NCBI GenBank assembly: GCA_963922205.1
Contig: CAWUHX010000069.1
Coordinates: 558,001 to 622,000 of the forward strand
Direction: 5' to 3'
From: Romanomermis culicivorax
Lineage: Eukaryota > Nematoda > Enoplea > Mermithida > Mermithidae
Length of the DNA stretch: 64,000 nt
Positions 6,168 through 36,257 of this stretch are shown one piece after another; position 1 is the first letter of the stretch; every line of letters starts with the position of its first letter. The notes below the pieces were generated by a model. It was not told the DNA's origin and did no database searches. It saw only the letters and a program-made list of their open reading frames with translations. The position numbers were made by a program, and so were the translations under genes.

Positions 6168-6618
6168 AGCTTCGAATAAAAAATTAGCCAAACGTTTCGC
6201 CCCGACCTCTTCCTATCTGCATGTACCGATCGAAGATGAAGATCGCGAAAAAATAGACAAACATTTCGATAGAGTCATCAATTTTTTGAGCGATCAAAAA
6301 TCTCAAAATCGCCGCGTTGTCGTGTATTGCGGATTGGGCGTTAGTCGTTCGGCCGCTTTCGTTTTAGCTTATTTGATGGCCGATCAACGTATGACCCTTT
6401 TCGACGCTTACAAATTTTTACGATCTAAACGATCGGTCATTCTACCGAACGTTGGATTTTTCAAACAATTGATCGATTTAGAAAAACGACTATTCGACGG
6501 TCGAAAAACCGTCGATATAATACGACCTTTGGAATCGAATAAAATCGAAGTGCCGGACGTCGTTTGGGCCGAAGTTTACGAGGAGGTATCGAAAAAATTG
6601 AGTCGCGGATGTCGATGA
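6168..6618 (+). pseudogene. DUSP14/18-like dual-specificity phosphatase, last exon, frame-broken
   Basis: The acceptor TTTTTTCAG precedes 6168. From 6181 the frame runs to TGA at 6616-6618. It shows the general-acid loop VPIEDED, the P-loop YCGLGVSRSAAFVLAYLM with the nucleophile Cys and invariant Arg, then PNVGFFKQLIDLEKRLF and VPDV, typical of the DUSP14/18/21 group, which removes phosphate from Tyr and Ser/Thr in signalling proteins. Two things are odd. The residue before the catalytic Cys is Tyr, where the family signature has His. Reading from the acceptor meets a stop in an A-run near 6179-6183, consistent with one missing base; the same spot could be a sequencing error. The N-terminal half of the domain must be on upstream exons that I did not find. 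Family call is firm; working or broken state is unresolved. Confidence 0.75.
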
Positions 6619-15160: not shown

Positions 15161-16448
15161 TATTCCCAAGTGAGCGATTTCCAACTGAGCGATTCCAAAC
15201 TGAGCGATTCTCATTTGAGCAATTCCCAAGTGGGCGATTCTCAATTGGGCGAATTCCCAATTGAGCGATTCCTCTGTGAGCGGTTCCCAATCGAGTGAAT
15301 TCCCAAATGAGCGAATTCCCAATTGGCTGATTCCAAACGAGAGATAAAAAATGTAATAAAACCTTCTTCAGATTTTTCTTCTTTACCTTATACTTTTCTT
15401 TGTATATATTTCTTTTTTCTTTCGTTCTGTGTGTTGTTTATGTTTTCGTTTATCTATGTTTTTGGAAATTTATCTTTTGTCTCTACTTTCTCTAATTTTT
15501 TTTCTCGTCATCTACTTTTTTCTTTTTTGCTCATGAAACGATACATTACAAGTTGTCATTTTTAATAAACATTGTCCCCGATATTATTCTTATACAATTC
15601 GGCACCCTCTATTCCCTATTTAATTTTATCCACCGCGATTTTTTCTTTATTCTCAACTACATTTCATAGTAGTTTTTTGCTTTTACTTCTTTATCTTTCT
15701 CTCTTTCTACTCTCCTGATTCCTTCTTTTTTCGTTTTTTTCCACATTATTTTTTTTCTTCCTTGCTGCTTTCTCTACTTTGCTTCTTCTTTCTTTTCATT
15801 TTTTCATGTTTTTATTCTTTTTCTGATCCTTCTCCACATAATTTCGCTTATTCTTAATGTCTTCATTTTTGTTGACGTTTCCTTTCTCTTGATATTTTGC
15901 TTCATCCAGCATTCTTTTGTTTGTTTTTTTAATGAAGATTTTCACTCTTATAACGATGAAAGACTCAAGCATGCCGAACCGTAACAAGAATTATACGGAA
16001 GACAACGATTATTTAAAATGACAACTTGAAATGCATTGTATCATGAGCAAAAAAAGAAAAAATTACATGACAAGAATGAAGAAAATGAAAGAAAGCACAG
16101 GCATAAAAACATGCATAAACGAAAAAAGTGGCAATACACACAGAAAACGAAAGAAAAAAGAATTACATAAAAAGAAAACTACGAGGTAAAGAAGGAAAAT
16201 ATGAAGAAATCGCTTGTTTGGAATCGCCCAATTGGAAATTCTATGATTTGAAAATTCGCTCAATTGGGTATTCGCTCATTTAGGAATTCGCTCAATAGGG
16301 AATCGCTCAATGGGGAATTCGCTCACATAGGAATTCGCTCAATTGGGAATCGCTCACATGGGAATCGCTGAATTGGGAATTTGCTCATTTGGGAATTCGC
16401 TGAATTGAGAATCGCTCACATGGGAATCGCTGAATTGGGAATTCGCTT
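15161..16448. mobile_element. Foldback-type element 1, copy 1
   Basis: The left part (15161-15350) is an array of 16-18-base units of the form GAGCGATTCCCAATT; the right part (about 16205-16448) is the same array inverted (AATTGGGAATCGCTC). Inside each array the arm continues as pyrimidine-rich sequence on the left and matching purine-rich sequence on the right (TACATTACAAGTTGTCATTTT versus its inverse near 16020). The arms total about 400 bp each around a pyrimidine-rich centre. Three copies in the window share arms and centre. No transposase is visible. Hydrophobic open frames inside are translations of pyrimidine runs. Confidence 0.75.
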
Positions 16449-16808
16449 TCAAAATTCCAGTTTCATCTTTCTTAAGCGCAGGCTTAGGATTAGGCTTAGG
16501 CTCAGGCTCGGGCTTAAGCTTAGTATTGTATTCGAGGCAACGGGATGCTTAGCATAAAAGTTTTTTTGAACGACAATATCATTGTTCGAGGTAACGGGAG
16601 ATTAGGTGATGGGACGTGCGGAGGGATATCCTCTTGTGAATAGAAGGAATGTCACGCGATACTGCTGTGCATACAAATCCGCTCACGATAAGGAAAGTAC
16701 TATTCCTAGATGAATTTTGTTGTGGAAAGTGAGACCCCGTTCAGTTGACCCTTGAAACTTCTTGCCATGCGCAAATATGTACCGTGAACCATTCCAAAAT
16801 TATTGTAA
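16449..16808. other. Non-coding, repeat-like
   Basis: GGCTTAGG/GGCTCAGG hexamer-like repeats lie at about 16484-16520, followed by inverted forms of the CCCGTTACCTCGAA motif near 16534 and 16585. No gene is seen. Confidence 0.35.
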
Positions 16809-20106: not shown

Positions 20107-22661
20107 TTAGAATGATGTCGCTAAAATTAAGTATTCAAACGATTCTTTTCCTTTGATTTTCGACAGTGTGCTGCAGTGAATATTTTTTGCAGATTTGCTA
20201 CGCTGGTCTTTGTCTAGAGTATGTAAATCAGATGGTTCTCCCGTGAACAACTTTTCGTTGGATAAGGGCGACATGTCTAAGAATATTTGGTCCTATGATT
20301 CAAAATATGGCATAATGATTGACTTTTAGAACACGATAGTGGACGTCAAATTTAGGCGTTGTATGTTTAATTGTTCAAAATGGGAACGCCCTGTTATTGA
20401 TGTTGACTTTTATTCAAGATTTTTAATGATTATTAGAAGAGACAGGCGATAGATTTTCTGGACAGCAAAAAATTTCGATGACTTTTGGGAAAAGACATAC
20501 ATTGACATTGATAACTTTGGAATGATATCTTTTCCTGTCTATTATCACTTTGGTGTTTTCGTTTGCGTTCCAAACATACCAAATGGCAAATCCGAGGTTT
20601 GGTTCGCCTGGTACCGATCAGTTATAAAGATAAACGCGTGCAAATAACGTGATTGAAAAATAATTCTTACTGTAAATTAACAGCTTAAGACGCGATATCT
20701 GATAGGACATGTCTTCCAAAATAGAAATCCACAACAACGTGAAAAGTAAATGTACTTCAAAATCTGATATGGTGCATATTTCGGATGTGCTAACAATCAC
20801 GTTTTGGGCTTTTCTTGTATGGAGCAACTTTTTGTACACTAAAAAATCGCACGTTTGCATGTTTGTTGCACAAACCTTTATATGCAGATAGAAATTAAGT
20901 CCATGTCCTTGATGCATAGCACCAAAGTACACAGCATTAACTTAGACTTCCTGAAAATTACTTCCTGGATGCTTCTGAATGGAAATTTATCTATACAAAT
21001 TTTAGTAAGAAGTTAGAAAAATTGAGATTTTGATCTTGTAAAATACACCAAAATTCACCCTTTTCATGTCTAACGCTCAACTTATTCCCTTTTCCGGAAA
21101 TTCTTTTTCTAAAATGTCAATCCAAAAAATTTTCCAATAGAATCCGGGCGAAGAGCCGGAAAATTATTCTATGTTCTCTGATTTTAGGGCCTAGATCTGA
21201 CCAATTAATGTCGAGAAAATCTCTTTTCCGACGGTGCCCAAAAATGTTTGTATGGAGTCAGGAATGTTTTTCTTGTAGAAAAAAACACTGATCACTGTAA
21301 CATTCATGTTGTCAGAAAATCGAAATTGAGTGCTCGCTGATGAATGCACCAAATATTTCGATTTTTGACAGTTTTACTCAAAAATTGCATGTCCAGATGA
21401 TTCGCTGCCAAAAAGTCAAAATACAAAAAAAAACATTTAAAAATGAGACAAAATTTGTGGTTTCCTTTTTTCTACGGTGTATCGCAGAATTTTTTTTTTA
21501 AATTGTAAGCTTCAGCGGCGATTTTCCATTAGTTGAACTATTCAACGGTATTCAAAGACTCCTACGTTTGGAGCGTTTATAAGAGCAGTGCTGGAAATGT
21601 TGTCAAAGAATTTAATGTTTGTCGTGATAAGTTTTGCACTAGACAAAATTCCAGAATTCTTTTATAAAGATAATGACTCTCGAAATTTCACTTAAATTCA
21701 TCTATTTTTTTGGGAATTTTTCAATGGTTGATGAAACACAAGCGAGTAGTGTTCCTGCAAGTCTTTTTTCTCAAATCGAGTGTGCATGATTATGAGCTAG
21801 ACAGAAGAAAAATAATTCGTTATACATACCTGGAAAAACTTTGCATCAGGTCATTTCCAAATATAAATTTTAGCAGTGATCAAAAATTAGATTATTCTCA
21901 TTACATATCATACTACTCATTTAGAAGTGGGGCAAGTCGAATCGGAGGAAAAATTTCTGCAGCGAGAAATCATCAGGTATACATAACAGAATCGAACCTC
22001 TTAATTTTGTGCAATTCAAACTTTTCTAATATCGGTACCATTTTAATTCATCTCTGAACTTTTCTTTAGGTAACCGTTCAAACAGGAACCTTTTTACTTG
22101 CTCATAGGACCGGTCCTCTATTATTTATTCGGACACATATGTTAGTGTCCAAGTATTCTAGCTTGCTTGACAGCAAAAATATTGTCCATTTTCGTAGAGA
22201 CGAAAAACGACTTACTCTGATTCTAATTTACAAGCGTTTTATAAAAAGCGGGAAAAGAGTCATCCTTGACCTGCAAATCGATTTGCGTTAAGCCATAATA
22301 TTAGGAATTTTTCAGATACATTAATTCAATTCAAAATACTGTACAGAATTTACATGAATGAAGGGTAGGGTTTGCTTTTCAAGTGACAGTTTGAAGTAGT
22401 TTGCACTTTGGGTGATGTCAGACCTCATCCCACGAAAGTGGAATTGAGATCAACAAGACGATCAGAAGTCAGCATATTGTTGGGTGACGCTGGATCCGTC
22501 AAAAATTGTGCAAATCTAGACCACATTCACCTAGTGAACTAATATATTTATGAGAAAGCAGTCTCAGACATGCCTGAAAGGATCATTTCTCAAAATAGTG
22601 ATCGTATAATACTTCACATAGTCTACTTTCATTAGTTGTATATTGGAGGCACCCTGGAGGG
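20107..22661. other. Intergenic DNA, no gene seen
   Basis: Open frames up to about 115 codons (for example 21710-22057) have AT-driven composition and no motif, so I do not call genes. The last bases (ATTGGAGGCACCCTGGAGGG) resemble the inverse of a repeat near 53020-53035, so the retrotransposon may have landed in an old repeat. Confidence 0.4.
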
Positions 22662-23559
22662 TGTAACGTACCTGCTAAAGCAGTACTGTAAATATGTAGC
22701 ATACTGTATGTGATAAACATTTATTAGATATTATTTTATTTTCACATTTTATCGTCTCAAGGATGTCTGGGATTCACACCCAAACATTCCTATAAAATTA
22801 CGTGAAGTACTTTATTTTGATCCGTTCACACCCCGGTAGCCCAATTAAGATGCCCTAATTAATTTGCGCAAACGGCAGCTGTTCCCCTAGAACCTACACT
22901 AAACTACACATTCCACAGCTACCGTAATCCTCTGTAAAAATCGTAAACAACACCTGCACACAGTAAAATACGTAGAAGCCCCGCCGTACAGTAGTCTCAA
23001 GTGTAACGGTAGCGGCGGCCCCACAAAACATGTGTATACAGGGAAACCGATACAGGAAGCATGCACAGAAGCACAAAGGTGTGGCCAAACCCACCGTAGA
23101 AAGCAAGTGAAGCACAGAAAGCATACGGTACCAGAAAAGCGTTAGAGGGGCGTAACTAAGTAAGCATAAAAAGCGTGGCAGGAAACGACGATTGGCGGAA
23201 GAAGATGGACAGAAGCTCGACCTCCCGCGACGCCCCGGGAGTGGCCAGAATCGCCGTATAAAAGAAGAAGCAAAGCGTGATTTGATTCATTCTATTTCTT
23301 GTATCGTTCAATTTTTCGACCCGGCGCCCGTATTTGCAAGCATTGTTTTGAGAGCGAGTCTCATTTTTATTCGGAAGCAATTAAGCCGTGTATACTCGCC
23401 GCGTTTATCGTTATCGTTGTCGTATCGACGTCTAAAGCAGCCGTCGAGTATTGTAAAGCCGTATATTATCGCCCCGTATTGTACCGCCCGTGCCCTTGTC
23501 CCCGCCCTATCGACTGATTGGTTAGTAGTAAAGTACCTCACACAAATCTGGTCGTTACA
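22662..23559 (+). repeat. Left LTR
   Basis: It starts TGTAAC and ends GTTACA, a perfect 6-bp inverted terminus with the usual TG...CA. A promoter-like TATAAAAG lies at 23257-23264. It is 898 bp, the same length as the right LTR. Short open frames inside are not genes; they recur in both LTRs. Confidence 0.95.
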
Positions 23560-23564
23560 TATTT

Positions 23565-23582
23565 TGGTGACCGTACCGTTAC
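23565..23582 (+). other. Primer-binding site
   Basis: TGGTGACCGTACCGTTAC begins 5 bases after the LTR. A TGG-initial site here pairs with the CCA 3' end of a tRNA to prime minus-strand DNA. I cannot name the tRNA from the sequence alone. Confidence 0.7.
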
Positions 23583-23802
23583 GTTAACCACTGGAACTCC
23601 CTGCCCCCAATTAGGTGTACTCTTATCCGGGCATTTAGAAGCATTAGATAATACAGTAGTAATCATTTCCTACAGTAAGATAGTATTCGTAGAAAGCAAA
23701 CTGGAAATCCCCTCCAACGAGACATTAAGCGATACATTTAAACGAATACAGCGTGAAGCAAAAATTGAAGCATTTAAGCAGAAATCCCAACATGAACCAA
23801 GA

Positions 23803-25549
23803 ATGACCCACCAAACGCAAGATCATTTAGGAGAAATTGTTAGAGAACAGATAAACGATTTGTTTTCAGAACATTTTCATACCCTACTCACACAATTGAA
23901 TCAGAATACAGTAAACCCAACCCTAATAGATGATCTAAGAACTGCAAACATTCGTAATAACATGGCAAATAATTTCTACGCGAAACCTACAGTATTCACG
24001 GGCGGCGTGACCCAACATTTTGGTGAATGGAACAAAAGATTAGAACAATTCATGGCACTCCAAGGCATGAAAGATACAGACGTACAGTTAAAGTTAGCAT
24101 GTTTAAAAATTCATTTACGAGGAGCCGCATTAGCAAAATTCAAAAGTTTAGCAAATTCCGAAAAACCCTCCCCACACATACGAGCAGTATAAAGTCGCAT
24201 TACAGGCATTTTTCCCAAACAATAGAGATAATGAGCTACATCAACAATTCTTGCGCGAAAGAAAACAAAAGCGTTCAGAAACAGTAACAGAATTCTTATT
24301 TGATTTAGAACATCTTGCAACCCTCGCCTACCCTAACTTTAACACAGACGCACGAGAAATGATCATAAAACCCCTCTTTGTAGAAGGCATGCAAAACGAA
24401 ATCAGGGAAGCAATTAAGTATAGAAGGTTCGCGACTCTAAAAGAAATGTCAGACGAAGCAGCTTACATTGAACAGCAAATTCTTAGAAATGAGTTAAAAT
24501 CTAACGTTCTTCCCTTCATACCCCCAAAACCCGAACCCATCTTTTCCCTAACCAAAAATACAGACCAACAGGATCTATTGCATCAGTTAGAACAACAAGT
24601 AAAAGATTTACAGTTGCAGATCAAACAAAAACCTCAACCCCCACAACAGAGTAGCTACAACAATTTCAGTAACAATACTTTCAGCAGGAATAATGCTTAC
24701 AGGAACAATACCACCCCTAGGCAACCCACATGCTTCCAGTGTGGACAAATCGGACACGTAGCTCGTAATTGTAAATCAGTAGGCACCCGAAAATCATGTG
24801 AAATCTGTTTCCGTAATAATCACAGTACACGCGATTGTAAAAGCCGATGCATCCACTGCTCCCAAACAGGACATAGATCAGACAACTGCCTTTCAAAACC
24901 CTACTCCAATTTTCAATGTTTTCTATGCAAGCAGAGAGGTCATGCAAGCAGGTATTGTCCAAATCGGCAGAGTCGTAATATTCAAAATTGCATTGAGTAC
25001 AGGCAACCCCAAACCCTCATGGACATTGACGACCCCGCATTTTACTCAAAATTACCCGCCATAACTAACGGCCCTCAGACTACTTTAGGAACAATCATGC
25101 CCAACACCCACTGCCGTAGTGACGAATACGTCCTTGATCTGGACGTACCCGATTGGTGCGCCATGTCACCAGCCCCCATGCCTGAAGCCGCAAAAATCGA
25201 AAAATTGCCGCCGACCATCCCCGTAGGCTACAAGATCCCCCGAAAGCAAGACACCACGCTGCCCACCGCCCCCGAAACCCCGTCGAAAACAAGCCGCAAC
25301 TTGTTATCCCTTCTCCATGGCCTGACCCCCGAACCCTACCAATTCCGCCCCCGCCAAACACTTCTACCGACCCCCATAAGTAAGCAAGTCCAAACCCCAT
25401 CCCATAACTCAACTTCTAAAGTTTTACAGAATGTTCAGATTTCAAACCGGCCACCCCCCCCAGCTCAAAATCCCAAAACGACAACACCAAAAGCCCCAAC
25501 ACCAAACCAGCCACAACGAAAACATACAGTGCCCCGCCGCCTCCACTAA
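23803..25549 (+). pseudogene. gag: gag (capsid and nucleocapsid), one frame break
   Basis: The structural protein that forms the particle and packages RNA. The first in-frame ATG is 23803, although the frame is open upstream into the LTR. The N-terminal part ends at a TAA at 24190-24192. The rest continues in the +1 frame from about 24176 to 25549; the change falls near the A/C-rich run at 24161-24173. The capsid-type segment spans the break. Then come a Gln-rich coiled segment and four CCHC zinc knuckles in a row, starting at 24731, 24797, 24848 and 24917 (CFQCGQIGHVARNC is the first). Ty3/gypsy gag usually has one or two. A Pro-rich tail follows and overlaps the next frame by 119 bases. The break could be a mutation, a sequencing error or, less likely, programmed. 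Confidence 0.8.
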
Positions 25550-27989
25550 AACATTCTATTGGCCGATGTTTTGTATTTTTCTTTGTATAATAATCCCCAC
25601 ATCGAGTAGTGCCCAATTTCAGATGTGTGGAACTTCATTGAGCGGTCACTCAGTCAGCATACCGAAACTTGTATCATGCATGCCCCCTTCCACACTAGAC
25701 AAACCCGTACAGACACTCGGAAAAATCTATATCCCCTCCACTAAGCCCGACATTACAGACGCATACAAATGCAGTGTTCGCAAACGCAAAATTTGTACTA
25801 ATACAGGATTTTTTGGATCAAAAGGTATTGTCTTCGACCAAACCGAAATGCAAAATCTAACCCCACATGTTTGTAAGGCAATCGTTATAGACAAAGAACA
25901 CAATGGTCAAAAATTATACGAAACCCAACCAGGATTTTGGTCAACAAATAACTCCCAAAGCATAGAATACACATGGTGTTGTACAGACCATTGTACCTCA
26001 GTCACTAACGTCATCATAGAAATAGGACAAATAGCATCTTGGAATGGAAAATCTATGACAGGTACATTAGGCGACCTAGGATCATGCAAACCGACATCAG
26101 GTCATTGTGTCACAGCCGACGGATCTATCATCTGGAATGAAACAGCATTTGAAAACTTATGCCCTTTCGAGTACAAAAATACACATCCCATCAAACTCAC
26201 GCAAACACACATGATAATAGAAGAGCTACAAGGTGCATTCTCGGTTAAAAATACAGTTTTTTCAAACCCCAATTGCCCAGAAATCCAAGACAGCATTCTA
26301 ACCGAACAAGGCATTATCGTACAATTGGACAAAAGCACCCCACATCGTAACGCATTTTTAACCCCAAAAACCAACGAAACTCATACTACACTATACGATT
26401 TTGATGATTTTGAACCCATCAATGCAAAACTCAACTATCTAGCAGATAAAATCCAGGAATTCGAAATTCAAAATTTCAAAAATGTATGGAATGAATTATG
26501 CAGACAGGCACAGCATCACCTTGATCTCGTATGGCAAATTTTGCATCTTGATGCAACCCTTGGAGCGCATGCATTTCTACAAAGAACCGACATAATAGCA
26601 GAATTCACAGGAGAAGCCCTCACAGTCTGGCCCTGCAAGCAGGTAAACGCGTCCAAAGTCTTTTACAACCATAAAATCAACCAAACATGCTACAAACTTT
26701 TGCCCATTCTCGTAGGAACTGAACTCATCTTTTCAAATCCAGGTGGCAACGACTTGACCCCTTTCTCACAAACCGTTGACTGCCATCACATGCATGTAGC
26801 CCTTTACAAACAGAATAATACATGGGTAAGTGAAACAGGATCCCCGCATGTCACAAATTTACCTTTAGAAATCGTCTGGAACCAAAATTTCTCCCTTTTC
26901 CATTTTAATACACCCGCCATTTTTCATGATCAACTTGCAACTATTTCAACCAACTTACTCTTTTTGAAACAATACATTTACAAAACTCACACTCTGGAAA
27001 ACGTTGTCAAAAAACTCGTCAATTACACCGCCCAAATGTCTCTCAATTCCGATACAGTTTACAACATGATCTCAGGCACTGGCCAAGCACTCGGAAATAC
27101 ACTCTCTGGTGCCGGTCAAGGCATAGAACATGTAATTACCGGTACCACCCAAAGCCTCACGGACGGACTAAACAATTTACTCAAAGGACCCCTGCAAATC
27201 ATTATAAATCTCGCCCTTATTACTGTAGTTCTTGCAGGCGTCTTTTATTCGTTTCTCGTTCTTCGAAAATATTTCCCCTCCCCAAAGCATCAGGTCACAC
27301 ATGAACATACATACGAAATACCATCGAACAACAGACATTTACATGAGACCATACCCCCATCATTCGGCCATGCTCTCTTAGAATTAGCTAATCGTCGTGG
27401 GGCACAAACACAGCAGAAATACGTCCTTGTCGATATTGATACCCCCCAAACCCCTGCAATCGAACTGATTAATCAAATTCACCAATCTGCATCAAACAAG
27501 CCACCCCAGAATCTACCTGAAAAACATACCCCTCACATCCCAATTACACTTAACAACAAATTAATGACAAAAGGCATGATTGACACTGGTGCAGTTTACT
27601 CACTCATTGATTCCCGAGTCGCGCAACTTTTACAATTAGACATGAAACCCCCGCTAGTCCAAGCAAAAGCAGCAAATAATCTTCCGATTCACTTTGTAGG
27701 AACCACTTTTGTCACTGTGACAGCCCAAACAATCCAGGAAACAATCATGATCCATGTTCAAAAAGATTGTACAGCAGACATCCTTCTAGGCAAAAACTTT
27801 CTCAGTCGATTTTCGGAATACACTATCAACAATCAAAAATCACAGGTCAAATTTGGCAATGTCATACTACCTTGTGATGGCCTAGAATACAGCCCACTTT
27901 CGACCGGAAAAATTAGAATTACCACCCCGTACAGTAACCAAATTTACTGTCCCCTTGCCCAAATCGTACTTACTGGTCAAACAGCTTGA
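25431..27989 (+). CDS. Envelope-like glycoprotein fused to retropepsin protease
   Basis: 852 codons from a true ATG, in the +1 frame relative to gag. After a basic, Gln-rich leader, a hydrophobic segment (about residues 41-58, TFYWPMFCIFLCIIIP) acts as signal peptide. The ectodomain (about 62-585) has many cysteines and nine N-x-S/T sites, a helical middle and a Gly-rich stretch before a transmembrane segment (about 588-612, LQIIINLALITVVLAGVF). A tail of about 100 residues leads into an aspartic protease: active-site DTGA at residues 718-721 and ILLGKNFL near 784. The protease should cut gag and pol; the glycoprotein would be membrane-inserted. How the protease reaches the cytosolic side is explained by the single membrane pass, since it follows the tail. 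The frame is intact, unlike gag and RT. Protease call is firm; envelope call rests on topology and glycosylation sites. Confidence 0.8.
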   Translation: MFRFQTGHPPQLKIPKRQHQKPQHQTSHNENIQCPAASTKTFYWPMFCIFLCIIIPTSSSAQFQMCGTSLSGHSVSIPKLVSCMPPSTLDKPVQTLGKIYIPSTKPDITDAYKCSVRKRKICTNTGFFGSKGIVFDQTEMQNLTPHVCKAIVIDKEHNGQKLYETQPGFWSTNNSQSIEYTWCCTDHCTSVTNVIIEIGQIASWNGKSMTGTLGDLGSCKPTSGHCVTADGSIIWNETAFENLCPFEYKNTHPIKLTQTHMIIEELQGAFSVKNTVFSNPNCPEIQDSILTEQGIIVQLDKSTPHRNAFLTPKTNETHTTLYDFDDFEPINAKLNYLADKIQEFEIQNFKNVWNELCRQAQHHLDLVWQILHLDATLGAHAFLQRTDIIAEFTGEALTVWPCKQVNASKVFYNHKINQTCYKLLPILVGTELIFSNPGGNDLTPFSQTVDCHHMHVALYKQNNTWVSETGSPHVTNLPLEIVWNQNFSLFHFNTPAIFHDQLATISTNLLFLKQYIYKTHTLENVVKKLVNYTAQMSLNSDTVYNMISGTGQALGNTLSGAGQGIEHVITGTTQSLTDGLNNLLKGPLQIIINLALITVVLAGVFYSFLVLRKYFPSPKHQVTHEHTYEIPSNNRHLHETIPPSFGHALLELANRRGAQTQQKYVLVDIDTPQTPAIELINQIHQSASNKPPQNLPEKHTPHIPITLNNKLMTKGMIDTGAVYSLIDSRVAQLLQLDMKPPLVQAKAANNLPIHFVGTTFVTVTAQTIQETIMIHVQKDCTADILLGKNFLSRFSEYTINNQKSQVKFGNVILPCDGLEYSPLSTGKIRITTPYSNQIYCPLAQIVLTGQTA

Positions 27990-28011
27990 ATTCACCCCGA
28001 AACCCAAATAG

Positions 28012-28965
28012 AATCCCAAAGTCCATTTTGCAGCTTGTGTCTCTGAAAATCAAAACAGTCGCATATGCATATCGGTCCTAAACACGCAAGAAACAGCTCA
28101 AATTCTTTACCCCGGAACATGCATTGGTACAGTCTCCTGTTACATTCCAAAACAAAATACTCCCGTTAACATACCCCCCTCCACGCAAAGTCAGCCCAAC
28201 CGTTTTGATACATTCACATGGTTAAAAGAAAACGTTAATTTAACCTCCAGTGACCTGACAGAAGCAGAAAAAACGCAACTCCTACGCGCCCTATCAAAGT
28301 ATCCCACATTATATGCTAAATCCAAAATGGATGTAGGTAGAACCACCCTCGTTTCACATACAATTGACACCAATGGCTCCCAACCCGTACGTAGACAACT
28401 TTATCGGACTTCCCCAAAAGAAAAGCAAATTATACAAGCAGAAGTTGAGCAACTCGCAGCAGCAGGTGTCATAAGCCAAAGCAATTCTCCATGGTGTACC
28501 AACACAGTTTTACTTCCAAAAAAAGACGGAGGCCATCGTTTATGCATTGATTTTAGAGGCCTCAATAAAGTAACCAAGAAAGATACATACCCCCTGCCCC
28601 CCATAGATGAAATTCTAGACACTCTACATGGCATGAAATATTTCACCTCTCTTGACCAATCCAATGCATATTATTCCATTCCTATAGCCCAAGCAGACAG
28701 AGAAAAAACGGCCTTTAATTGCTCAGCCGGCCAGTATCAACTCAATTACCTCCCTTTTGGACTCACCAATGCCCCAGCCACATTCCAAAGGTTAATGGAT
28801 GTTATTCTTTTGGGCCTGCAATGCAACACATGCCTTGTATATCTCGACGATGTTTAGGTATTCGCAGACTCCCATGCCCAAATGCTGGAACGTTCAGACA
28901 CTATTCTTGCCCGATTCTCACAAGCAGGCCTTAAGCTAAACATACAAAAATGTAAATTCTGATAG
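28012..28965 (+). pseudogene. pol: Reverse transcriptase, interrupted by stops
   Basis: The frame is +1 relative to the protease and is preceded by an in-frame TAG at 28009-28011. Clear RT motifs follow: PVRRQLYRTSP, VLLPKKDGGHRLCIDFRGLN, FTSLDQSNAYYSI, LPFGLTNAPATFQRLMD and the catalytic YLDDV. An in-frame TAG (28855-28857) comes directly after YLDDV, and TGA-TAG (28960-28965) stand in tandem where the next conserved block (CKF, then a Trp or Gln position) continues. The enzyme would copy the RNA genome into DNA, but this copy cannot make a full RT without reading through at least three stops. The catalytic Asp pair is intact. Confidence 0.9.
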
Positions 28966-31014
28966 CCCCAAGTCCAATACTTAGGCCACGTCATTTCTCA
29001 GCAAGGCATTTCACCAGATCCCCATAAGGTACAGGCCATCTATGACATACCCACACCCAAAAGCTCAAAAGAAGTTAAGTCTTTCCTTGGCCTACCCTCG
29101 TATTATCGTAGATTCATTCCAAATTGCTCTCAAGTTTCTAGCCCACTCACATCGCTACTCAAAAAGAATTCGGAATTTTCCTGGGGCCCTGAGCAGCAAA
29201 ACGCATTCACTAAACTAAAAGAATTACTCATTCATGCCCCAATACTGCAGCATCCCGATTTCACAAAACCATTTATACTGCAAACTGACGCCTCAAAACT
29301 CGGAATCGGCGCCATTCTCAGTCAGCTAGATAGCAAAGGTCAGGATCGCCCCATCGCTTTTGGGAGCCGCACATTGAAACCCGCAGAACGCAACTACCCA
29401 ATAACTGAGTTGGAAACCCCTGCAGTAGTTGAGTTTGTCAAGTATTTCCGCCCCTACCTTTTCCAGCAACATGTTATTGTACACACTGACCATACAGCAG
29501 TTCAAGCAGTTCTACAGAAGGAAAACCCATCCCCTCGCATTGCCCGTTGGGGATTAGCCCTCTCTGGTATTCAGCTAGACATTCGACCCAAGAAAGGCAC
29601 TGCTAACAACAACGCAGATGCAGTTTCTCGATTCCCCTCACAAACAGCAAAGCAATCCTTTGATATTGAGCAATTAGAAACCCGCCCCGAAATACCAACT
29701 ATCAATTCAGTTTTGGAAGCCGAAGCAACTGAACAAGAAGAGCAACAGAAAAATTATGCCGAACTCCAACGCACTGACCCAACTGTCAAAACTATTTTAG
29801 CAAAAATCGCCCAAAAACACCCCCTTACCCTTATCAAATTCGCAGTGCATCACAACATTCTCTTCCGTATAGTCGACAAACAGGCAAAACTATACATTCC
29901 CAAGTCGCAAGTCCAGCATCTCATCGCCTCACATCATGACAGCAAATTCACAGGTCATTTTGCTGCCCAGAAAACTTTACACTTGCTCCGACAAAAATAT
30001 TTTTGGCCCCAAATGAGCCGTGATATCAAACGATACTGCAAAACTTGTCACCCATGCCAGACACAGAAAGCTCTTAGACACAAGGTACATGCAAATTTAG
30101 TACCAATTCAGCCGACTGGCCCATTTGATAGAGTCGGTGTTGATTGCATGGGACCGTTACCCCTCACTGAAGACGGCAACCGATTCATTGTCATTTTCAT
30201 CGATTATTTCACAAAGTATGTAGAGGCATTCCCGACCCCTGACATCACTGCAGCCACTATTGCCAAGCTATTCGTAACCAAAATTGTTTGCCGTCATGGG
30301 TCCCCAAAAATCATCCATTGTGATCGTGGCTCCGATTTTGAATCCGATCTCTTCTCACGGATAACTAGTTTATGCAATACTCAGAAAATTCATACCACCC
30401 CATATCATCCCATTGCCAATGGGGAAGTTGAGCGTTGCAACCAAACCCTAGCCACCCGTATCTGCATGTACATCAATTCAAATCACACTGATTGGGATAC
30501 TTATCTACCCTATGCCGTTTTTTCGATCAACATTCATAAAAATGATAGCACATCGTATCCCCCATTTGAATTACTCCACGGGAGGCAAGCAAATCTGCCG
30601 TCAGACGCAGCCTTGAATTTTTTCCCCACATCCTACATGGTTGATTTAGACAATTACGCCCTTCGTGTAAAATCACATTTTACAGAAGCACTCTCAACCG
30701 TGCAGAAAAGTTTGCAAAAAGCCCAAGCCCACTATACCCATCAGTATAACAAGCATGCTCAGAACATACACTACAAGGTAGGTGATCTTATTCTCTACAA
30801 AAATCATTCGTGTAAACAAGGGGTGACTCCCAAATTCCTCCCTCGCCAAAACGGACCCTATACAGTTACAAATTTCATGTACCCCAACGTTACACTTAAA
30901 CATCCCTATAAGAATATTACATTTACGGTGCATGTAAACGAGACAACCCCTTTCTACCCTCGGAAAGCAACTATCGAATCTACCCCCACCCCTCCTCAAC
31001 CTCGAAAGCCTTGA
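28966..31014 (+). CDS. pol: pol: RT thumb, RNase H and integrase
   Basis: 682 open codons in the RT frame, without stops to TAA-free end TGA at 31012-31014. The first part is the RT end (YLGHVIS, FLGLPSYYRRFIPN). RNase H shows TDASKLGIGAIL, the ELE helix, HTDH and NADAVSR, i.e. all four acidic positions. Integrase has the HHCC zinc finger (HHDSKFTGHFA ... CKTCHPC), then the D, D-x35-E core (VDCMGPLP, IHCDRGSDF, NGEVERCN), and a C-terminal GPY module (NGPYTV). No chromodomain is seen. It would remove RNA from the hybrid and insert the DNA copy. The first in-frame ATG is 29374, but the domains start upstream, so it is part of a polyprotein rather than a separate gene. Confidence 0.9.
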   Translation, partial: PQVQYLGHVISQQGISPDPHKVQAIYDIPTPKSSKEVKSFLGLPSYYRRFIPNCSQVSSPLTSLLKKNSEFSWGPEQQNAFTKLKELLIHAPILQHPDFTKPFILQTDASKLGIGAILSQLDSKGQDRPIAFGSRTLKPAERNYPITELETPAVVEFVKYFRPYLFQQHVIVHTDHTAVQAVLQKENPSPRIARWGLALSGIQLDIRPKKGTANNNADAVSRFPSQTAKQSFDIEQLETRPEIPTINSVLEAEATEQEEQQKNYAELQRTDPTVKTILAKIAQKHPLTLIKFAVHHNILFRIVDKQAKLYIPKSQVQHLIASHHDSKFTGHFAAQKTLHLLRQKYFWPQMSRDIKRYCKTCHPCQTQKALRHKVHANLVPIQPTGPFDRVGVDCMGPLPLTEDGNRFIVIFIDYFTKYVEAFPTPDITAATIAKLFVTKIVCRHGSPKIIHCDRGSDFESDLFSRITSLCNTQKIHTTPYHPIANGEVERCNQTLATRICMYINSNHTDWDTYLPYAVFSINIHKNDSTSYPPFELLHGRQANLPSDAALNFFPTSYMVDLDNYALRVKSHFTEALSTVQKSLQKAQAHYTHQYNKHAQNIHYKVGDLILYKNHSCKQGVTPKFLPRQNGPYTVTNFMYPNVTLKHPYKNITFTVHVNETTPFYPRKATIESTPTPPQPRKP

Positions 31015-31032
31015 ACGAGGTCGTTCAACTCC

Positions 31033-31045
31033 GGAAGGAGGGAAA
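31033..31045 (+). other. Polypurine tract
   Basis: GGAAGGAGGGAAA abuts the right LTR. It primes plus-strand DNA in LTR retrotransposons. It starts 18 bases after the integrase stop, which leaves no room for a 3' env gene. Confidence 0.85.
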
Positions 31046-31943
31046 TGTAACGTACCTGCTAAAGCAGTACTGTAAATATGTAGCATACTGTATGTGATAA
31101 ACATTTATTAGATATTATTTTATTTTCACATTTTATCGTCTCAAGGATGTCTGGGATTCACACCCAAACATTCCTATAAAATTACGTGAAGTACTTTATT
31201 TTGATCCGTTCACACCCCGGTAGCCCAATTAAGATGCCCTAATTAATTTGCGCAAACGGCAGCTGTTCCCCTAGAACCTACACTAAACTACACATTCCAC
31301 AGCTACCGTAATCCTCCGTAAAAATCGTAAACAACACCTGCACACAGTAAAATACGTAGAAGCCCCGCCCTACAGTAGTCTCAAGTGTAACGGTAGCGGC
31401 GGCCCCACAAAACATGTGTATACAGGGAAACGGATACAGGAAGCATGCACAGAAGCACAAAGGTGTGGCCAAACCCACCGTAGAAAGCAAGTGAAGCACA
31501 GAAAGCATACGGTACCAGAAAAGCGTTAGAGGGGCGTAACTAAGTAAGCATAAAAAACGTGGCAGGAAACGACGATTGGCGGAAGAAGATGGACAGAAGC
31601 TCGACCTCCCGCGACGCCCCGGGAGTGGCCAGAATCGCCGTATAAAAGAAGAAGCAAAGCGTGATTTGATTCATTCTATTTCTTGTATCGTTCAATTTTT
31701 CGACCCCACGCCCGTATTTGCAAGCATTGTTTTGAGAGCGAGTCTCATTTTTATTCGGAAGCAATTAAGCCGTGTATACTCGCCGCGTTTATCGTTATCA
31801 TTGTCGTATCGACGTCTAAAGCAGCCGTCGAGTATTGTAAAGCTGTATATTATCGCCCCGTATTGTACCGCCCGTGCCCTTGTCCCCGCCGTATCGATCG
31901 ATTGGTTAGAAGTAAAGTACCTCACACAAATCTGGTCGTTACA
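31046..31943 (+). repeat. Right LTR
   Basis: It is 898 bp with the same TGTAAC ... GTTACA termini. The TATAAAAG box is at 31641-31648. About twelve substitutions separate it from the left LTR, for example near 31317, 31370 and 31432. Confidence 0.95.
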
Positions 31944-31947
31944 AGGG

Positions 31948-35571: not shown

Positions 35572-35847
35572 TCAATGACGACATTCGCAGACGGTCGCTG
35601 CGTTGAACGTCACTTGAGCGCCCGACGACGACGCTTGGCATTTGGTCGAAAACCCGCCCGAACTTTGCGAACATTTTCGGACGCAGCAATCTTTGAACGT
35701 AGAACAAGCCTTTTGCAAATTCTGACCGTCGGCTTCTTGTTTGCAAGCTTCGGTGACCTGGCGATTGTCCACGGCGCCGGCGAGTATGTTCGTCGCAACG
35801 AGAAAAATCGAAAAAGCGACAAAGATCAAAATAGTAGATTTTTGCAT
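35572..35847 (-). CDS. Secreted 8-cysteine peptide, family A, gene A1
   Basis: A single exon of 91 residues on the minus strand. An ATG 18 codons upstream (35899-35901) is in frame, but the start at 35847 puts the signal peptide (MQKSTILIFVAFSIFLVATN) at the N-terminus, as in its paralogues. Mature cysteine spacing is C-x12-C-x5-CC-x3-C-x10-C-x16-C-x-C, ending in CECRH, enough for four disulphides. A2, A3 and A4 share the spacing and the CxxFKxCCxRxC core. The coding DNA is rich in NCG codons against AT-rich flanks. I do not recognise the fold. The double CC and closing CxC set it apart from family B. A secreted defence, venom or effector role is possible but not shown. Confidence 0.8.
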   Translation of the reverse strand: MQKSTILIFVAFSIFLVATNILAGAVDNRQVTEACKQEADGQNLQKACSTFKDCCVRKCSQSSGGFSTKCQASSSGAQVTFNAATVCECRH

Positions 35848-36257
35848 TTTTTGGTCAATGTGGAGAAATGAAAGTAGAAACTTTAGAATACGAGATGGCA
35901 AAAACTTAAAATTTTTAGCTATTTATGTGAGCCAAACTTGAAGAAAATTTAAGATGACGTAAAAAAGCTATTAATTATCGATAAGATAGTAAATTGGGGT
36001 TAATTAATTATTGTGCAAACTTTGGAAGGTGAACAAATATAATGCATCATACTTTGAAAAAAGATACCAATGCAGGCGAAATATCACATATGCCTAAAGA
36101 ATACAATTTCTTTAATTAAAAAAATATAGATTATAATGGTATAACTTTAATTCAATTCAGAACCCTAAAATTTGTAGGAACCTGAGAAAATACCAAAAAA
36201 CTTACTTGATACAAGGTTTGTATGTTAGTCTAACTATCGGAATATTCTAGACGACAT

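Follow-up and report, generated by a model that had tools for sequence, protein, structure and literature searches.

In the Metaviridae profile of the International Committee on Taxonomy of Viruses (ICTV), the envelope glycoprotein (Env), where present, lies downstream of the integrase domain (PMC7879559), in agreement with the statement in a first-pass annotation of the DNA studied here that known env-bearing Ty3/gypsy elements have env after pol. The element described here lies in a 64,000-nucleotide stretch (the window; G000:C69:558001-622000) of the genome of Romanomermis culicivorax, and in it Env is encoded between Gag and the protease (PR), not downstream of integrase (IN). R. culicivorax is a mermithid nematode that parasitises mosquito larvae. 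Its repeats have been described in general terms (section 3.3 of PMC10879605). The element shares with the Metaviridae its long terminal repeats (LTRs), polypurine tract, Gag, and the order PR, reverse transcriptase (RT), RNase H (RH) and IN, and the ICTV profile allows one, two or three genes (PMC7879559).

Several described systems resemble this element in part. The errantiviruses, endogenous retroviruses of insects such as gypsy and ZAM, have Ty3/gypsy-type Gag and Pol, LTRs and an envelope glycoprotein; their Env is described as a third open reading frame after gag and pol that is expressed from spliced RNA and is of baculovirus F type (PMC12992720), in contrast to the predicted class III-type glycoprotein between Gag and PR here. 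The same class of glycoprotein, as type III fusion glycoproteins, is borne by some gypsy elements, with mosquitoes among the hosts, according to a 2026 paper that treats envelope-carrying gypsy elements across metazoans and cites Chary and Hayashi 2025 (PMC13172572); the available part of that paper does not state the position of env. Anakin of mosquitoes is an LTR element with a glycoprotein of jingchuvirus or mononegavirus type (chuvirus), but is described as a BEL/Pao element (PMC7642597), whereas the RT of the R. culicivorax lineage is closest to Ty3 among solved structures, a comparison that did not set it directly against BEL. Related Jingchuvirales glycoproteins occur as endogenous viral elements in arthropods and nematodes, two nematode cases being mentioned, and the available part of that 2023 study reports no clear evidence of their capture by Gypsy elements (PMC10084718). 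Cer1 of Caenorhabditis elegans is likewise a nematode Ty3/gypsy element (PMC10309623).

Gene order in the window element and its copies

The genome (359,112,060 bases in 595 contigs) holds a large, diverged Ty3/gypsy-type lineage with a predicted class III-type glycoprotein inside its polyprotein, and the window element is a decayed copy of this lineage. The lineage has the order Gag-Env-PR-Pol, with a shared frame in many copies, recurs over several families and has been under purifying selection. The window element spans positions 22662-31943, and by Pfam its domains follow in the order zinc knuckles, glycoprotein, aspartic protease, RT, RH and IN. The 852-codon frame that the first-pass annotation had described as a glycoprotein fused to protease is present (Table 1), in a stop-free run of 869 codons whose chance probability at the base composition of the element is about 6e-21; the hydrophobic signal segment, nine sequons, transmembrane segment, tail and DTGA protease claimed for it were all found, the tail and then the protease following the transmembrane segment. 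Its residues 826-852 lie beyond the region matched by the other 52 scored copies, all of which end at 825. The LTR pair has 12 mismatches over 898 positions. Gag of this copy is divided between two frames, Env is out of frame with it, and RT has an internal stop; the counterpart of this Gag in copy L009 (P0002) matches Retrotrans_gag and zf-CCHC in Pfam.

Searching the genome with the 852-residue protein gave 5,471 candidates, 53 of which were scored, and those other than the window copy are 95-97% identical to it. Of these 53 copies, 31 have a frame open for 2,450 codons or longer (the length of one is unreliable), and the window family often has one frame of about 2,400 codons counted from the Gag methionine. 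In L009, the one copy checked through, the long frame reads Gag-Env-PR-RT-RH-IN: it runs for 2,546 codons from stop to stop, has its first methionine at codon 138 and holds motifs of nucleocapsid, PR, RT and the integrase zinc finger, and the LTRs of this copy are identical over 870 bases. That Gag is in the long frame of most other copies is taken from frame length. The Gag-Env junction lies in one frame in 7 of 11 window-family copies, one of which (L006) has an in-frame stop a little upstream. The separate Env-PR frame with its own ATG that had been proposed thus gives way to a frame shared with Gag and Pol in many copies, and env does not natively begin with the ATG at 25431, since the window copy is decayed and the region shares its frame with the end of Gag in those seven junctions.

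The integrase stop of the window copy lies at 31014, and direct reading bore out the claim of a polypurine tract 18 bases on with no coding sequence, and hence no env, 3' of integrase. The distance from this stop to the 3' LTR is 31 bases in the window and in L009 and about the same in L011, and in L023 and L024 it is 9 and 10 bases to a TGT taken as the LTR start, so that none of the five copies read past integrase has room for a 3' env (9-31 bases). This is consistent with a check set beforehand, that other copies should have the same order: Gag-Env-PR-Pol is kept in them, with no 3' env where this part was read.

The order extends to diverged families, which were reached by a Pfam-family search of the genome (68 scored of 2,320 candidates; the first six fetched loci were compared, then more). 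Their ectodomains are 37% (L018), 43% (L017) and 56-57% (L019, L030, L032) identical to that of the window, and L022 represents a nearer subfamily at 86-91% identity. Reading gave Gag zinc knuckles, then Env, then PR in five families (the window's, L019, L017, L018 and L032/L037/L039), and part of the order in three more, as knuckles and Env in L030/L038 and as Env and PR in L040-L042 and in L021. The last zinc knuckles, the linker, the signal and Env stand in a single frame in L019, L017, L037 and L038, as well as in the window family. An RT search that was blind to env, and whose set overlaps that of the 852-residue search, gave 105 scored copies from 8,700 candidates, and 50 of the 105 have frames of at least 2,450 codons (again with one unreliable length). 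In all five RT matches fetched, over three RT identity classes, Env is immediately followed by PR within one open frame; these five had been chosen for frame length from the 50 with long frames, and no search for env-less elements in the RT clade was made. That several families hold nearly identical copies with long frames suggests that the lineage was active recently.

As a separate observation, G000:C180:404-17640 contains three matches to Env that each hold a single TGA and recur every 8,365 bases; this suggests either tandem copies of the element or an assembly repeat.

The glycoprotein

As judged from profile and predicted structure, Env is a class III-type glycoprotein (gB or mononegavirus G-like). 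The window protein scores 67.8 bits against PF24664 (Monjiviricetes_fusion), for which the curated Pfam cut-off is 27; this cut-off is passed by all four family representatives, and no match to the family was found in 14 control genomes. A predicted structure of the ectodomain, used in a fold search, matches viral fusion proteins and has a gB-like fold, with no unrelated protein matched, which was the outcome that the structure check proposed in the first-pass annotation had called for; a first model of poor quality (predicted local distance difference test, 52; predicted template modelling score, 0.34) was kept out of this search, and the second structure alignment did not include P0003 or L033. 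Identity as a non-envelope protein is rejected by the Pfam match and the fold search. No baculovirus F-type Env family is among the Pfam matches of the glycoprotein, in contrast to the Env of errantiviruses.

The hydrophobic segment at the start of the window Env peaks at residues 45-63 in a Kyte-Doolittle scan, and nine N-x-S/T sequons lie in residues 62-589 (eight across the whole frame under a stricter pattern). By the same scan, one hydrophobic segment precedes the ectodomain and another follows it in four families, and the signal segment, placed alike in the window and the other families, is present also in L037 and L038. All 16 ectodomain cysteines are common to the seven full rows of the alignment (two fragment rows were left out) and are kept down to 37% ectodomain identity. 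No conserved methionine stands just before the signal, and L017 and L037 have no methionine in the approximately 45 residues shown. A separate start codon for Env beside the signal is rejected, as none is conserved among families.

Relatives of the glycoprotein include an R. culicivorax UniRef protein, whose identity to copies in this genome reaches 80%, and two fragments, P0004 (filed under a gammaproteobacterial metagenome-assembled genome, probably misassigned) and P0005 (from the Joint Genome Institute, JGI). A protein search with residues 40-640 of P0001 gave no match at E 1e-3, and profile A1 then gave three; P0001 gave no match in a PDB sequence search, and viral contig scans with P0001 and A1 revealed no relative.

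Selection and classification

Purifying selection has acted on the lineage. The pairwise ratio of nonsynonymous to synonymous substitution rates (dN/dS) is 0.05-0.15 in Env of the window family, after the L022 rows, in which stop codons had been skipped, were dropped from the count, and 0.02-0.10 in Gag. In the 202-codon linker between the zinc knuckles and the signal it is 0.10-0.29, and the linker is therefore constrained as protein, less so than Gag or Env.

Several features of the element are those of Ty3/gypsy elements. By Pfam, PR precedes RT in pol, in the order PR-RT-RH-IN; the LTR ends are TG..CA, the target-site duplication of 4 bp (AGGG) falls in the 4-6 bp range of the group and a polypurine tract is present; and a named protein match to Pol is Gypsy Pol of the transposon 412 type. 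The solved structure nearest to RT-RH of L023 is that of Ty3 (E 4.4e-84), followed among other molecules by an 'Enzymatic polyprotein' (9.5e-52), in a placement for which no BEL or copia sequence was deliberately compared. A tree of RT-RH from 33 chosen rows out of 122, drawn without such an outgroup, places four families of this genome together with P0006, P0007, P0013 and P0014 on one side of a branch with support of 100/95. P0006, a metagenomic JGI sequence that is 51% identical in Pol, has a membrane segment at 38-56 and a DTGS protease at 114, followed by Pol; the protease therefore follows a membrane anchor there too, in a sequence that does not cover the part upstream. Identity with Troyka was considered and rejected, as Troyka is described with 3-bp duplications, CG..CG ends and no Env (PMC12440569).

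Table 1. Features of the Ty3/gypsy-type element, in window coordinates
Feature	Position	Strand	Evidence
Target-site duplication AGGG, 5' copy	22658..22661	.	Read directly
5' LTR, 898 bp, TGTAAC...GTTACA	22662..23559	+	Repeat detection; ends read directly
Candidate primer binding site TGGTGACC...	23565..23582	+	Sequence after 5' LTR; no tRNA matched
Gag; Met at 23803; two frames in window copy, zinc knuckles in second	23803..25549	+	
Env-PR frame, 852 codons from ATG	25431..27989	+	Stop-free from 25380
Hydrophobic internal signal segment of Env, approximately residues 45-61	25563..25613	+	Kyte-Doolittle scan; cleavage site inferred
Env ectodomain, class III-like fusion fold (predicted), 9 sequons, 16 conserved Cys	25614..27197	+	Pfam PF24664, E 6.6e-19; fold search
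Env transmembrane segment, residues 590-608	27198..27254	+	Hydrophobicity scan
Aspartic protease (DTGA), residues 704-793	27540..27809	+	Pfam PF13975 (gag-asp_proteas), E 9.1e-8
RT, N-terminal part, ended by a stop codon in window copy	28012..28857	+	Pfam, frame list
RH and IN open stretch	28966..31014	+	Pfam, frame list
Polypurine tract	31033..31045	+	Read directly
3' LTR, 898 bp	31046..31943	+	Repeat detection; read directly
Target-site duplication AGGG, 3' copy	31944..31947	.	Read directly

Expression of the lineage

The best explanation of these data, and probably the correct one, is that the lineage would make Gag-Env-PR-RT-RH-IN as one membrane-threaded polyprotein, because the two hydrophobic segments stand on either side of the ectodomain, where an internal signal and a stop-transfer anchor would be expected, and separate it from Gag at one end and from PR-RT-RH-IN at the other. 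The Gag part of such a chain would stay in the cytosol and the internal signal would send the chain into the endoplasmic reticulum, where the ectodomain would be glycosylated in the lumen, the second hydrophobic segment would stop transfer, and PR-RT-RH-IN would remain cytosolic, joined to the tail of Env. Gag and Env would be parted by signal peptidase and the remaining sites cut by the protease of the element during assembly, and it would be Env, not Gag, that carries the enzymes into particles. A flavivirus polyprotein is likewise a single membrane-threaded chain that holds the capsid, an internal signal, the glycoproteins and the enzymes in this order; the virus is unrelated and the analogy only functional. 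More tentatively, one such polyprotein may supply the Gag, class III-type Env and Pol of a distinct Ty3/gypsy endogenous retrovirus clade, present in this nematode genome and apparently in environmental samples; PR, RT and IN would then enter the particle tethered to Env and not to Gag.

Several observations weigh against a single chain. A frame of 2,450 codons is lacking in 22 of the 53 scored window-family copies and in 55 of the 105 RT-scored copies, and 4 of the 11 Gag-Env junctions of the window family, that of the window among them, are out of frame. All three copies of the most diverged family (L018, L035 and L036) have a stop or frame change between Gag and Env, a separation that may reflect decay or a different expression strategy, and L017 has an in-frame stop just upstream of its zinc knuckles, which therefore places the capsid part outside the Env frame in that copy. 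Decay is the simplest reading of the out-of-frame copies, and some families may have a two-frame design. In addition, one long chain would give equal amounts of Gag, Env and Pol, and retroviruses need an excess of Gag.

The main alternative is that splicing would produce a subgenomic RNA in which a leader, or the first part of gag, is joined in frame to the sequence preceding the signal. Env-PR-Pol would then be a separate fusion protein, and the unspliced RNA would serve for Gag and as genome. This would suit the L018 family and L017, in which the Gag or capsid part lies outside the Env frame, and has described parallels: Drosophila errantiviruses use spliced RNA for Env, one subclade doing so from within gag (PMC12992720), and CERV of Cer1 comes from a spliced mRNA, sharing peptides with GAG (PMC10309623). 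However, splicing alone would not require the 202-codon linker between Gag and Env to be open with a dN/dS of 0.10-0.29, nor the knuckles and Env to stand in one frame in five families, and we consider this alternative rather unlikely, though a serious competitor.

A further possibility, to which we give a low probability, is that the middle protein would serve in the host as a fusion protein that lets the element pass from cell to cell or between tissues, and would not coat a particle. A class III fold would fit a role in cell fusion, and no particle has been observed; however, a chain shared with protease and Pol would point to assembly. It is more improbable still that the glycoprotein was captured by an ancestral element and has since been copied along as a passenger with no envelope function. 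Many copies are indeed broken, but the Env dN/dS of 0.05-0.15 disfavours such a passenger, as does the retention of all 16 cysteines down to 37% identity together with the signal, anchor and fold. Finally, a chance or one-off rearrangement or assembly chimera of the window copy, which its decay might have suggested, is refuted by the AGGG duplication on both flanks and by the repetition of the order in many other copies and in diverged families.

A single polyprotein remains the preferred account. The novelty of the lineage would lie in the gene order, because type III glycoproteins in gypsy elements are already in print (PMC13172572). A literature search by titles and abstract starts found no published report of a Gag-Env-Pol order, Chary and Hayashi 2025 being outside its reach, and the position of env is new if those authors have not reported such a layout; no description of an Env-tethered assembly logic was found. 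The existence of a conserved lineage whose polyprotein contains the envelope shows that the env order given by the ICTV is not fixed, and such a lineage provides a natural test of how Gag, Env and Pol are balanced in a retroelement with no separate 3' gene.

Other features of the window

Outside the element, two adjacent long frames at 1-1332 and 1342-2772 on the plus strand (443 and 476 amino acids, the second with a Gly/Gln/Arg-rich end) gave no Pfam match at E 0.01 and possibly belong to another mobile element. A cysteine-rich, secreted-looking frame of 109 amino acids at 35572-35901 on the minus strand also gave no Pfam match at E 0.01. At 6286-6618 on the plus strand, an exon-like frame encodes a dual-specificity phosphatase domain (PF00782, E 4.4e-21), and positions 16220-16468 hold a tandem array of GGAATTCGCTCA-like units at spacings of 15-16 and 31 bases.

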